Shown in pieces: positions 16,376 through 19,569 of a stretch of 64,000 nt of DNA. The notes beneath the pieces were generated by a model. That model ran no database searches. It saw only the letters and a program-made list of their open reading frames with translations, and was not told where the DNA came from. The stretch comes from Oscillospiraceae bacterium (GTDB lineage: Bacteria > Bacillota > Clostridia > Oscillospirales > Oscillospiraceae): positions 1-64,000 of the forward strand of contig SVMH01000005.1 in assembly GCA_015067525.1 (NCBI GenBank). Direction: 5' to 3'. A program made the position numbers and the translations under genes. Position 1 is the first letter of the stretch, and every line of letters begins with the position of its first letter.

Positions 16376-17149
16376 ATGCGAGAAAACGAGACCAAAAAGA
16401 CGCTGCCGGAAGCCGAAGCCGACGGAATTATCGAAGGCCGCAACGCGGTGATCGAGGCGCTGCGCTCCGGCGCCGCCATCGACAAGATCTATCTGGCCAA
16501 GGGCGAGACGGACAAGACGCTGGGCCACATCGCCTCCAAGGCCCGCGCCGCCGGCATCGTGGTGGTGGAGGCCGACCGGCGCAAGCTGGACAACATGAGC
16601 CGCACCCACTCCCATCAGGGCGTCATCGCACTGGCCGCTATGCGGGAGTATGTGTCGGTGGAATCCCTGCTGGAAAACGCCGCCGCCAAGGGGGAACAGC
16701 CTCTGCTGGTGGTCTGCGATGAGATCTCCGATCCCCACAATCTGGGCGCCATCCTGCGTACGGCGGAGTGTGCCGGCGCCCATGGCGTCATCATCCCCAA
16801 GCGCCGCAGCGCAGGCCTGACGGCCATTGTGGCCAAGACCTCCGCCGGTGCGGTGAGCTACATGCCCGTGGCCCGCGTGGCCAATATCCCCAGCCTCCTG
16901 AAGGATCTGAAGAAGCAGGGAGTCTGGGTCTTCGGCACCGCGGCCGACGGCAACACCACTCTCTACAATGCTGATCTCAAGGGCCCCGCCGCCATCGTCA
17001 TCGGCAGCGAGGGCAGCGGCATGAGCCGTCTGGTGGCGGAAAACTGCGACTTCTTAGTCAGTATTCCCATGAAGGGCCAGATCTCTTCCCTGAACGCATC
17101 GGCTGCCGCTGCCATTTTGCTGTATGAGGCGGTGCGCCAGCGCATCTGA
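16376..17149 (+). CDS. rlmB: 23S rRNA (guanosine-2'-O-)-methyltransferase RlmB (SpoU/TrmH family)
   Basis: 257-aa SPOUT methyltransferase that uses SAM to methylate a 23S rRNA guanosine ribose. N-terminal substrate-binding domain begins IIEGRNAVIEALRSG; the three SpoU motifs are DPHNLGAILRTAECAGA, IVIGSEGSGMSRLV and IPMKGQISSLNASAAAAI, which build the knotted SAM site. The unusual gene 17167-19446 starts 18 bp after the stop and is presumably co-transcribed. Confidence 0.93.
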   Translation: MRENETKKTLPEAEADGIIEGRNAVIEALRSGAAIDKIYLAKGETDKTLGHIASKARAAGIVVVEADRRKLDNMSRTHSHQGVIALAAMREYVSVESLLENAAAKGEQPLLVVCDEISDPHNLGAILRTAECAGAHGVIIPKRRSAGLTAIVAKTSAGAVSYMPVARVANIPSLLKDLKKQGVWVFGTAADGNTTLYNADLKGPAAIVIGSEGSGMSRLVAENCDFLVSIPMKGQISSLNASAAAAILLYEAVRQRI

Positions 17150-17166
17150 ACACAGAAAGGAACACC

Positions 17167-19446
17167 ATGAGCAAGCGCAGCGACGATTTGTTTGATACGC
17201 TGTCGGAGACCAAGCGTTTGGTGGGCGATCTGGAAGCGCCCGCCAGCGAGGAGTTTTCGCTGGAGTCCATCCTGGCCGAATTCGGCCAGGGTGTGGCGGA
17301 GCCTGCGCAAAAACAGGAGGAAACGCCCCCTGCACCGGCGGACCCGGTGGAAGAGGAGTCCTCTTGCCAAGAGGTGCCGGCGGAAGAGCCGACGCCGGTG
17401 GAGAACGAAGCGGAAGAGGCGGCCGCACCGGAGGAAGAACCTGTCCGCCAGGAGGAGCCTGCACCGCGCCGCACCAAGGTACTGCAGTTCCCCCAGCTGT
17501 TTGCCCGGACGGAGGAAGAGCCGGAAGAAACCGAGCCCCCCGCAGAGTCGGAAGCCCCGGCGGAACCGGAACCTGCGGAGGAGCCTGTGGCCGAACCGGA
17601 AACTGAGGAGGAGACCAAGGTCTCCATTGAAGACGTGATGGCCCGCACGGTGGATGCCGTGCTGGACGATGAAAGCGACGCCCTGCTGGAAGAGCGGCCG
17701 CCCCTGACCGAGCAGATCGGCTTTTGGTGGGCCAATGTGAAGGAAAAGGCGTCGGAGCTGGTGGGGCAGTTTGTTCCCGCGGCAAAAACTGCCGTTGGCA
17801 GCAGAGAAGAGGGCTTCCGCCGGGAGCCGGATATGGAGCAGGCCTTCCGCGAGACCAAGCGCCGCTGCAAGCGCCTGAGCCGCCAGCTGCTGTTCTCTGC
17901 CCTTCCGCTGGCAGTGCTGCTGGCGCTGACGGTGATCGATACGTGGTTTTCTTCCGTTTTGCCGCCGCTGTGGAGCGCGCAGGTGCTGCTGCGCTGCGGC
18001 GTGGTGGGCGGATTGCTGCTGCTTACCTGCCTGCTGGCCACGCAGGTGTGGCGCGAGGCGCTGCGGGGTCTGAAGGAAAAGCAGATGACCTGTGAGGCAG
18101 CATCGGCCCTGCAGGTGCTGGCTGTGCTGGGTGAGTGTGTTTACGGCGCTGTGACCGGCCGGATGGACTATCTGCCGCTGGCGGCGAGCGCTGCGCTGCT
18201 GGTGTGGCTGTGCCTGTTGGGTCGGCTGCTGCTGAGCAGGGCACAGCGCGACGCATACCGTCTGATGGATCTGGGCGGCCGTCCGCCCTATGCCGTGGCG
18301 GTCACCTCCGCCGGTGCCTGCAAGCAAAAGGGGCGGATCGACGGATTTTACAGCACTTTCCAGCGGCCGGATCCCGCCGCTGTGAGCCAGAATATCCTGC
18401 TGCCGCTGCTGCTGTCTGCCTGCACGGTGCTTGCCGGTGTGGTGTGTATCGGCGGTGAGCGGATGGAGGAGTTTTTGCGGGTGTGGAGCGTGCTGCTGAC
18501 GGCTTCGCTGTCGCTGGGTCTGCCGCTGTGCGGCAGTTTGAGCGTGTACTGCCTGCAAAAGCGGTTGGGCCGCAGCGGCTGCGCCGTGGCCGGTTATGCC
18601 GGCGCCCGGACGGTCAGCGACTCCAAGCGCATGGTGCTGACGGACAGCGATGTGTTTCCACCCGGCACCGTCAGCCTCAACGGACTGAAGATCTACGGTG
18701 AGGAGATCGGCAAGGTGGCATCCTATGCCGCCACGCTGGCCCGGGCTTCCGGCAGCCAGCTCCAGCCGATTTTTGAGCAGCTGCTCACGGCCGAGGGCGG
18801 CACCCACTGTGCTTACGATGACCTGCACTTCTACGAAGAGGGCGGTGTGGGCATCACCATCCGCGGCGAGAGCGTCACCATGGGCAGCGAGTATTTCATG
18901 CGCAAGCGCCGTGTCCGGCTGCCGCAGGAGCTGAAGGTGAAAACCGGTGTGTTTCTGGCAGTGGACGGTCAGCTGATCGCCATTTTTGCCATCAAATATC
19001 AGGCTTCACGCAATGTGGAGTGGGCCCTGCGCGCCCTGCGCCGCAGCCGCATCGAACCGGTGCTGGCGGTGCGCAGCGGCAACATCACCCCCGGTCTTTT
19101 GAAAAAGCGCTTCGGCGTGGATGCAAGGCCCGTATATCCTGACGTGTCTACCCGTCTGGCGCTTTCCAACCTGTCGGGCGAAACGGTGGAGCAGGCCAAC
19201 GCCGTGCTGTACCGCGAGGGTTTGATGCCTTTTGCCGAGGTGGTGATCGGCAGCCGCCGCTGCTGCCGCGCCGTGCGGCGCAGCACCCTTTTGTGCTGGC
19301 TGGGCAGCCTGTGCGGCCTGCTGCTGGGCTATTATCTCACGGGCGTGGCCGCGTACAGTGCCCTAAGTGCGGGCTTTGTGCTGCTCTTCACCCTGCTGTG
19401 GCTGCTGCCGGCGGTGCTGCTGGCGGACCTGACACGCAGGTATTAA
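17167..19446 (+). CDS. Membrane protein resembling a degenerate P-type ATPase with a long acidic N-terminus
   Basis: 759 aa. Residues 1 to about 195 are soluble and extremely rich in Glu, Pro and Ala, then come about six hydrophobic segments, a soluble domain and two C-terminal hydrophobic segments. From about residue 455 the order follows heavy-metal P-type ATPases: a helix with LGLPLCGSLS where CPC-type motifs sit, a stretch like the approach to the phosphorylation site (GYAGARTVSDSKRMVLTD), and a region like the end of the P-domain (FLAVDGQLIAIFAIKYQASRNVEWALRALRRSRIEP). The catalytic motifs are gone: DKTGT reads DSDVF (D493), TGDN reads RSGN (636-639), no GDGxND hinge and no TGE actuator loop are visible. 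This is an inference from pattern; no family assignment is claimed. Co-transcribed with rlmB. Confidence 0.7.
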   Translation: MSKRSDDLFDTLSETKRLVGDLEAPASEEFSLESILAEFGQGVAEPAQKQEETPPAPADPVEEESSCQEVPAEEPTPVENEAEEAAAPEEEPVRQEEPAPRRTKVLQFPQLFARTEEEPEETEPPAESEAPAEPEPAEEPVAEPETEEETKVSIEDVMARTVDAVLDDESDALLEERPPLTEQIGFWWANVKEKASELVGQFVPAAKTAVGSREEGFRREPDMEQAFRETKRRCKRLSRQLLFSALPLAVLLALTVIDTWFSSVLPPLWSAQVLLRCGVVGGLLLLTCLLATQVWREALRGLKEKQMTCEAASALQVLAVLGECVYGAVTGRMDYLPLAASAALLVWLCLLGRLLLSRAQRDAYRLMDLGGRPPYAVAVTSAGACKQKGRIDGFYSTFQRPDPAAVSQNILLPLLLSACTVLAGVVCIGGERMEEFLRVWSVLLTASLSLGLPLCGSLSVYCLQKRLGRSGCAVAGYAGARTVSDSKRMVLTDSDVFPPGTVSLNGLKIYGEEIGKVASYAATLARASGSQLQPIFEQLLTAEGGTHCAYDDLHFYEEGGVGITIRGESVTMGSEYFMRKRRVRLPQELKVKTGVFLAVDGQLIAIFAIKYQASRNVEWALRALRRSRIEPVLAVRSGNITPGLLKKRFGVDARPVYPDVSTRLALSNLSGETVEQANAVLYREGLMPFAEVVIGSRRCCRAVRRSTLLCWLGSLCGLLLGYYLTGVAAYSALSAGFVLLFTLLWLLPAVLLADLTRRY

Positions 19447-19457
19447 GCAAAAAACGT

Positions 19458-19487
19458 AAAAAAGGACGCTTCGGCGTCCTTTTTTTG
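19458..19487 (+). terminator. Intrinsic terminator
   Basis: AAAAAGGACGC, TTCG tetraloop, GCGTCCTTTTTTT. Confidence 0.92.
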
Positions 19488-19540: not shown

Positions 19541-19569
19541 TTGTCAGGTCGGCAGAAATATTATATAAT
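19541..19569 (+). promoter_or_regulatory. Sigma-A promoter of the EF-G-like gene
   Basis: TTGTCA (19541-19546), 17-bp spacer, perfect TATAAT (19564-19569). Confidence 0.85.

Follow-up and report, generated by a model that had tools for sequence, protein, structure and literature searches.

P-type pumps are usually described by their aspartyl-phosphate cycle. Among members of the superfamily, Caenorhabditis elegans CATP-1 is a catalysis-independent case, and passages of its report describe it as a Na,K pump (PMC11631496). For mammalian ATP13A5, autophosphorylation was not detectable in the study concerned; according to passages of that paper the protein keeps typical P-type sequence motifs, and its authors report trouble with reproducible expression (PMC5837089). 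Among the open-access full-text matches listed, none describes a family of bacterial pseudo-P-type ATPases. Here we describe such a family from a gene at positions 17,167 to 19,446 of a contig of an Oscillospiraceae bacterium (order Oscillospirales; SVMH01000005.1, assembly GCA_015067525.1). The window is the whole stretch of DNA analysed, 64,000 nucleotides, and the gene lies on its forward strand behind rlmB.

The open reading frame, proposed in a first-pass annotation made from the letters alone, is real and encodes 759 residues. It is not a chance frame: genomes across the order encode the protein, again without its catalytic motifs. The gene represents an ancient, order-wide family of pseudoenzymes whose ancestor was a copper-type P1B ATPase: the fold is recognisable, the catalytic residues are lost, and the gene is widely conserved under purifying selection. 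Judged from sequence, the protein is almost certainly a catalytically dead P1B relative. The pump fold with altered or deleted working parts, kept beside rlmB across the order, indicates that this membrane protein very probably has an undescribed job other than pumping. The best explanation as a whole, which we put at about even chances, is a dead copper-type P1B pseudoenzyme acting as a membrane scaffold or tether.

Loss of catalytic motifs

Family members were aligned jointly with six real P1B pumps. One locus (L062), which is in two fragments with a stop between them in that genome, was left out before alignment, leaving 97 of 98 rows composed of the window protein and the loci. Counts over 84 rows cover the window protein together with loci numbered L014 or higher, with the 13 close loci (L001-L013) counted apart, and conservation means refer to 82 rows. 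Sixty loci (L100-L159) were chosen from 191 matches to span many genera and are not a random draw. DKTGT, GDGxND and CP[CH] are each absent from all 97 members, and [SC]PC is present in one. The orthologue comparison suggested by the first-pass annotation therefore produced no member with intact DKTGT or GDGxND, and an active P-type ATPase is ruled out by the three absences. The features of the locus are as follows.

17167..19446, forward strand: pseudo-P1B-ATPase coding sequence, 759 residues, coordinates including the stop codon (open reading frame, profile homology, predicted fold)
17254..17286, forward strand: short N-terminal motif FSLESILAEFG, residues 30-40, proposed docking motif (motif counts, alignment)
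17287..17832, forward strand: Glu/Pro/Ala-rich acidic linker, residues 41-222, variable in length among relatives (sequence, composition)
17833..18267, forward strand: membrane helices matching MA, MB (kinked), M1 and M2, residues 223-367 (model, profile block)
18268..18372, forward strand: actuator (A) domain remnant, residues 368-402, catalytic TGE part deleted (M2-M3 length comparison)
18373..18516, forward strand: M3-M4, residues 403-450, with L448-S449-L450 at the CPC place (model, joint alignment)
18640..18654, forward strand: T492-D493-S494-D495-V496 at the D-K-T-G-T place; family signature [DE]-[LIV]-[FY]-P (alignment columns)
18706..18942, forward strand: nucleotide (N) domain, residues 514-592, HP histidine lost, G560 and G573 kept (alignment columns)
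19069..19080, forward strand: V635-R636-S637-G638 at the T-G-D-N place (joint alignment)
19222..19440, forward strand: M5-M6, residues 686-758, preceding GDGxND segment deleted (model, joint alignment)
16376..17149, forward strand: rlmB, 23S rRNA Gm2251 2'-O-methyltransferase, upstream operon partner (PF00588, PF08032, adjacency in relatives)

The P1B-type order of segments and the altered motifs are present as the first-pass annotation described them, and the segment which it set at the TGDN place, V635-R636-S637-G638, does lie opposite T-G-D-N. Two of its placements had to be moved. The phosphorylation aspartate had been put at D493, while the alignment puts the DKTGT aspartate on T492, with T492-D493-S494-D495-V496 opposite the motif. 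Similarly, LGLPLC had been read in the CPC place, which instead aligns to L448-S449-L450 directly before it. The TGE loop and GDGxND had been listed as altered or absent; both are lost, but through deletion rather than alteration. The M2-M3 stretch, from which most of the TGE region is deleted, has a median of 60 residues (range 51-73 among the 97 members) against 134 in the six real pumps, and the stretch from the TGD site to M5 has a median of 70 (range 63-73) against 102-106.

Single columns give the same picture. The TGE glutamate column is a gap in 83 of the 84 rows and in all 13 close members, and no member has glutamate in it; TGE[SPAT] occurs anywhere in the last 600 residues in only 4/97. 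All GDGxND columns are gaps (84/84), and histidine is absent from the HP column of the N domain in all 97 members. The two CPC cysteine columns hold cysteine in 2/84 and 3/84. With DKTGT, the TGE loop, GDGxND, the HP histidine at its usual place and CPC all missing, the E1/E2 pump cycle is not expected.

The replaced phosphorylation loop is itself conserved, with an acidic residue at 492/493 in 79/84, an acidic residue at 495 in 79/84, phenylalanine or tyrosine at 497 in 80/84 and proline at 498 in 70/84. At position 492, the old aspartate column, aspartate is found in 24/84 and in none of the 13 close members, and the window protein has threonine. Glycine G560 of the N domain is kept in 83/84. 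At the TGD position the window protein has serine, and its 13 close relatives have serine (10), aspartate (2) or glycine (1). In the alignment, this loss of the TGD aspartate from the window protein and 11 of the 13 close relatives reads as further local decay or retuning.

Homology and predicted fold

With the window protein as a single sequence, Pfam gave no family, NCBIfam gave a copper P-type ATPase model as best match at E 0.019, and the PDB gave one match only, to a ribosomal protein at E 0.48. A profile of 25 diverse members reached the Legionella copper pump LpCopA (3rfu) at 5.9e-26. It aligned in three collinear blocks, namely the helices before the A domain (MA-M2 region, LpCopA 64-217), M3-M4 with the phosphorylation (P) and N domains, and, weakly, M5-M6. 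When the 25 members were scanned singly, 18 matched the CopA model PRK10671 at E<=0.1 (best 2.9e-16), seven matched the Zn/Cd model PRK11033, and five weakly matched ZntA models. The Pfam scan of the same 25 members found no covering family and only four stray single-member matches, at 0.02 or worse.

The AlphaFold2 model is predicted to contain all eight P1B membrane helices, kinked MB included, together with the P and N domains. Its first helices lie at model positions 24-61, 74-91/93-104, 110-131 and 140-168, and the part of the linker in the model (residues 200-217) has a predicted local distance difference test score (pLDDT) below 50. The best solved-structure matches of the predicted fold are P1B pumps, so the fold check proposed in the first-pass annotation returned the P1B fold.

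Distribution and selection

The profile was searched against 197 genomes of the order at E<=1e-35. The gene was found in 191 of them, covering 113 of 116 genera and 22 families, with one match per genome and two in a single genome. Of the remaining six genomes (G350, G486, G375, G428, G395 and G344), G350 has a gene start with the N-terminal motif behind rlmB followed by the end of the contig, and G486 has a diverged member behind rlmB with a profile score of 107. In a class-wide draw, 1e-70 was reached by 14 of 15 genomes of the order and by none of 278 others, the best of which stood at 3.6e-32. The four best matches outside the order and one weaker match (L201-L205) are all real pumps with DKTGT and GDGxND. 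Six of 299 genomes in a phylum-wide draw passed 1e-30: four genomes of the order, all strongly, and two others near 1e-31, one being a real pump (L200) and the other belonging to a second degenerate lineage (L199). Lower-ranked matches outside the order may include other degenerate P-type proteins.

The ratio of non-synonymous to synonymous change (dN/dS) was calculated from L018-L047; judged by length, some contigs of this set coincide with several of L001-L017. In five close pairs from three genome clusters, with core synonymous divergence (dS) below 0.25, dN/dS was 0.088-0.146 for the core and 0.31-0.50 for the N-terminal part. Over all 35 pairs the core values were 0.088-0.393. The test proposed by the first-pass annotation thus gave low dN/dS and purifying selection.

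Gene length among members ranges from 541 to 1455 residues. The start codon was taken as the first possible one, and the lengths of the N-terminal arm are therefore upper estimates. One in-frame stop was seen inside the matched gene in G057, G383, G373, G360 and G420, which is 5/150 places listed; these represent sequencing error or recent breakage. Decay to a pseudogene, or a sequencing artefact, could call on these five stops, but it is ruled out by the 145 listed places without a stop, the low core dN/dS of the closest pairs and the order-wide conservation in 191/197 genomes.

A near-universal gene of the order, usually single per genome, has no Pfam model and is called 'hypothetical protein' in the one annotated copy examined, so current maps of these bacteria seem to lack a core function. 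Purifying selection has maintained, throughout an order of common gut bacteria, a P-type member stripped of the parts of the cycle, and the usefulness of the P-type fold without ATP thereby becomes a question open to direct testing.

Linkage with rlmB

In the window, 17 nucleotides separate the stop codon of rlmB from the start of the pseudo-P1B gene. The RlmB protein looks ordinary, with a SpoU methylase domain (PF00588, 3.7e-45) and a substrate-binding domain (PF08032, 9.9e-21). A divergent ftsH lies upstream and a gene for an EF-G-like GTPase downstream. A terminator-like hairpin (19458-19485) and beyond it a promoter-like site (19541-19569) follow the pseudo-P1B gene; both are simple consensus matches, of kinds found 6 times against 2.7 in shuffles and once against 0.8, respectively.

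The arrangement is conserved. The gene immediately upstream, in the same orientation, is rlmB in all 17 close loci and in 77 of 80 diverse ones. Spacing is within -60 to 1500 nucleotides in 72 of these 77, 71 of them at 155 or less, and the larger overlap in the other five is probably due to the choice of first start codon. Of the three loci without adjacent rlmB, two have the gene at, or at most 100 nucleotides from, a contig end; in the third (G037) rlmB is on another contig, and the two genes stay together in four further genomes of its genus. The claim of the first-pass annotation that a dead pump is kept in an operon with rlmB is borne out by this synteny and the low dN/dS. The rlmB pairing also gives a concrete first place to look for function.

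The Subdoligranulum variabile record holds a 955-residue frame of the family immediately behind an rlmB homologue. In Vescimonas fastidiosa MM35 (NZ_AP023416.1), ftsH and rlmB, the latter annotated 'RlmB', are followed by the 'hypothetical protein' WP_212820792.1. This record (L228) has 861 kb and is labelled a plasmid, and it carries groEL/groES besides the ftsH-rlmB-pseudo-pump locus. With such core genes, the replicon looks like a second chromosome or chromid.

Four genomes that are 95-99% complete (G375 and G428 of one genus, G395 and G344) have neither the pseudo-pump gene nor an rlmB orthologue. Matches in them are limited to SpoU paralogues (E 1e-7 to 1e-19), whereas 11 related genomes reach 1e-66 or better. 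This hints at paired loss of both genes, and an assembly gap fits too. A DNA search of G344 with the locus of a sister genome recovered three pieces which all lie outside the gene pair, so the two explanations are not distinguished by it.

N-terminal arm and motif

As the first-pass annotation noted, the N-terminus is rich in Glu, Pro and Ala, which make up 48.7% of residues 1-195 compared with 19.5% in the remainder. Near its start lies a short motif of the kind FSLESILAEF. With a strict pattern, composed after viewing the sequences and applied to the first 160 residues, it was found in 61 of 97 members against 1.7% of shuffled sequences. I35 and E38 are invariant in an 18-row alignment. The arm between motif and membrane varies widely in length among members, and very long charged N-terminal arms were observed in L140 (G251), L135, L137 and L057, whose total lengths are 1164-1455 residues.

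A docking motif common across the proteome was considered and rejected. In the window's genome the exact pattern ILAE[FY] has a single occurrence, inside the pseudo-P1B gene. A looser one, [DE][DE]IL.E[FY], matched 26 times, in 15 of 30 genomes, and its reversed control 5 times. Ten of the 26 belong to the pseudo-P1B family, and the other 16 lie in unrelated frames, most of them not N-terminal.

Proposed role and alternatives

The first-pass annotation suggested a role as scaffold, sensor or regulator. We tentatively favour a scaffold or tether mechanism, at slightly under even chances, mainly because the N-terminus is built like a docking motif carried by a flexible tether. The eight-helix bundle with its P and N domains would be retained as a membrane platform. 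The motif [FY]S[LVI][DE]xILAE[FY], carried on a long flexible acidic arm, would capture a partner from the cytosol for the remodelled P/N head to hold or signal to. Co-transcription with rlmB, which the spacing suggests, would hint that this partner acts in ribosome maturation or translation. We infer membrane insertion, the scaffold role and the identity of the partner alike.

Several observations weigh against this mechanism. The strict motif is missing in 36 of 97 members, near variants occurring in several of these, and chance may account for a few of the 61 matches. The arm is entirely absent from three members of family f10 with 541-545 residues (L060, L103 and L104). Pattern searches of the window's genome and 30 genomes found no partner for the motif; the exact ILAE[FY] search of DNA from the window's genome returned a single occurrence, the pseudo-P1B gene itself, and from these searches the motif itself names no partner. 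The rlmB linkage could reflect shared expression only. Furthermore, the acid pair at the old phosphorylation loop (492/493 and 495) is conserved in 76/84 and the TGD aspartate is kept in 77/84, so a ligand or metal site may have been retained. The residue immediately before the HP column is histidine in 6/84 and in 7 of the 13 close members, for which the loss of nucleotide binding is therefore less than certain.

These last points bear on the main rival, a ligand sensor in which Mg2+ or a small molecule would bind in a non-catalytic P/N cleft, and this binding would signal by shifting the N-terminal arm or the membrane bundle. It is supported by the acid pair and TGD aspartate, by N639 (63/84) and G573 (84/84), and by the highest mean conservation in the first P-domain part (0.396) and the N domain (0.370), the other five regions lying at 0.30-0.34. 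On the other hand, the HP-column histidine is absent in 97/97, early histidines aside, and the TGD aspartate is lost in the window protein and most of its close relatives. We consider the sensor unlikely, with perhaps one chance in a few.

The scaffold can also be stated in a far-reaching form, which we regard as quite improbable. A dead P1B pump would have been recruited once at the base of the order, as an essential platform coupling the membrane to large-subunit rRNA modification or ribosome assembly via RlmB, and would be an order-defining feature with no known counterpart.

Residual transport, with the membrane bundle as a passive channel, carrier or flippase-like path independent of ATP, is slightly less probable still. 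All eight P1B helices are predicted, and the CPC position has proline in 56/84 and 13/13 close members, not in the window protein; yet the metal-site cysteine pair is lost, and conservation is no higher in the membrane segments than in the cytosolic P and N parts.

Two further readings are very unlikely, to a similar degree. The protein might act as the regulatory partner subunit of a P-type ATPase that is active in the same cell, and the window's genome does encode P1B pumps with intact DKTGT (L068, L169); however, the conserved neighbour is rlmB and no pump gene, and P1B pumps of solved structure are generally described as monomers. It might also have turned into another HAD-type enzyme, such as a phosphatase, that would use the DxD newly present at 493/495. 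HAD phosphatases carry DxD, which D493-x-D495 resembles, with acidic residues at both places in 76/84. Against this, the nucleophile position, 492, is aspartate in only 24/84, 493 is aspartate in 55/84 and alanine in 18/84, and the downstream Mg2+ segment is deleted. We disfavour the phosphatase reading, since aspartate is not invariant in the nucleophile column, at the end of strand 1.

A second degenerate lineage

Of 20 loci read, 11 form a second P1B-like set without DKTGT and GDGxND; all of these belong to family f120, which lies outside the class (L199/L208 at G794:C15:11911-13776, L209, L213, L215-L218 and L220-L223). Unlike the pseudo-P1B family, 10 of these 11 proteins keep HP. The G794 copy does not adjoin rlmB and sits between genes which we take to be ilvB-like and ispE-like. 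On the pseudo-P1B profile L199 scores 111.8, no better than five real CopA-like pumps (L200-L204, 135-183), so that the second lineage probably represents an independent loss. This second, apparently independent set suggests that conversions of pumps to dead proteins recur.

Comparison with known systems

The pseudo-P1B family is undescribed in the libraries and open-access literature searched, and the statement of the first-pass annotation that no family of this kind is described fits the libraries and the open-access matches listed. The nearest known proteins are the P1B-1 copper ATPases (CopA; LpCopA 3rfu/4bbj, ATP7B). From these the pseudo-P1B protein differs in lacking DKTGT, the TGE loop, GDGxND, the HP histidine and CPC, in having the M2-M3 (A-domain) region cut to about 60 residues, and, in the window protein, in the long acidic N-terminal arm with its short motif. 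With the Zn/Cd P1B ATPases (ZntA, CadA) the fold is common and the motif losses are the same, and similarity is lower than to CopA. CATP-1, as passages of its report present it, is a single animal protein (PMC11631496), while the pseudo-P1B proteins form an order-wide family with catalytic segments deleted. Finally, ATP13A5 retains the P-type motifs according to passages of its paper (PMC5837089), and the pseudo-P1B family has lost them.
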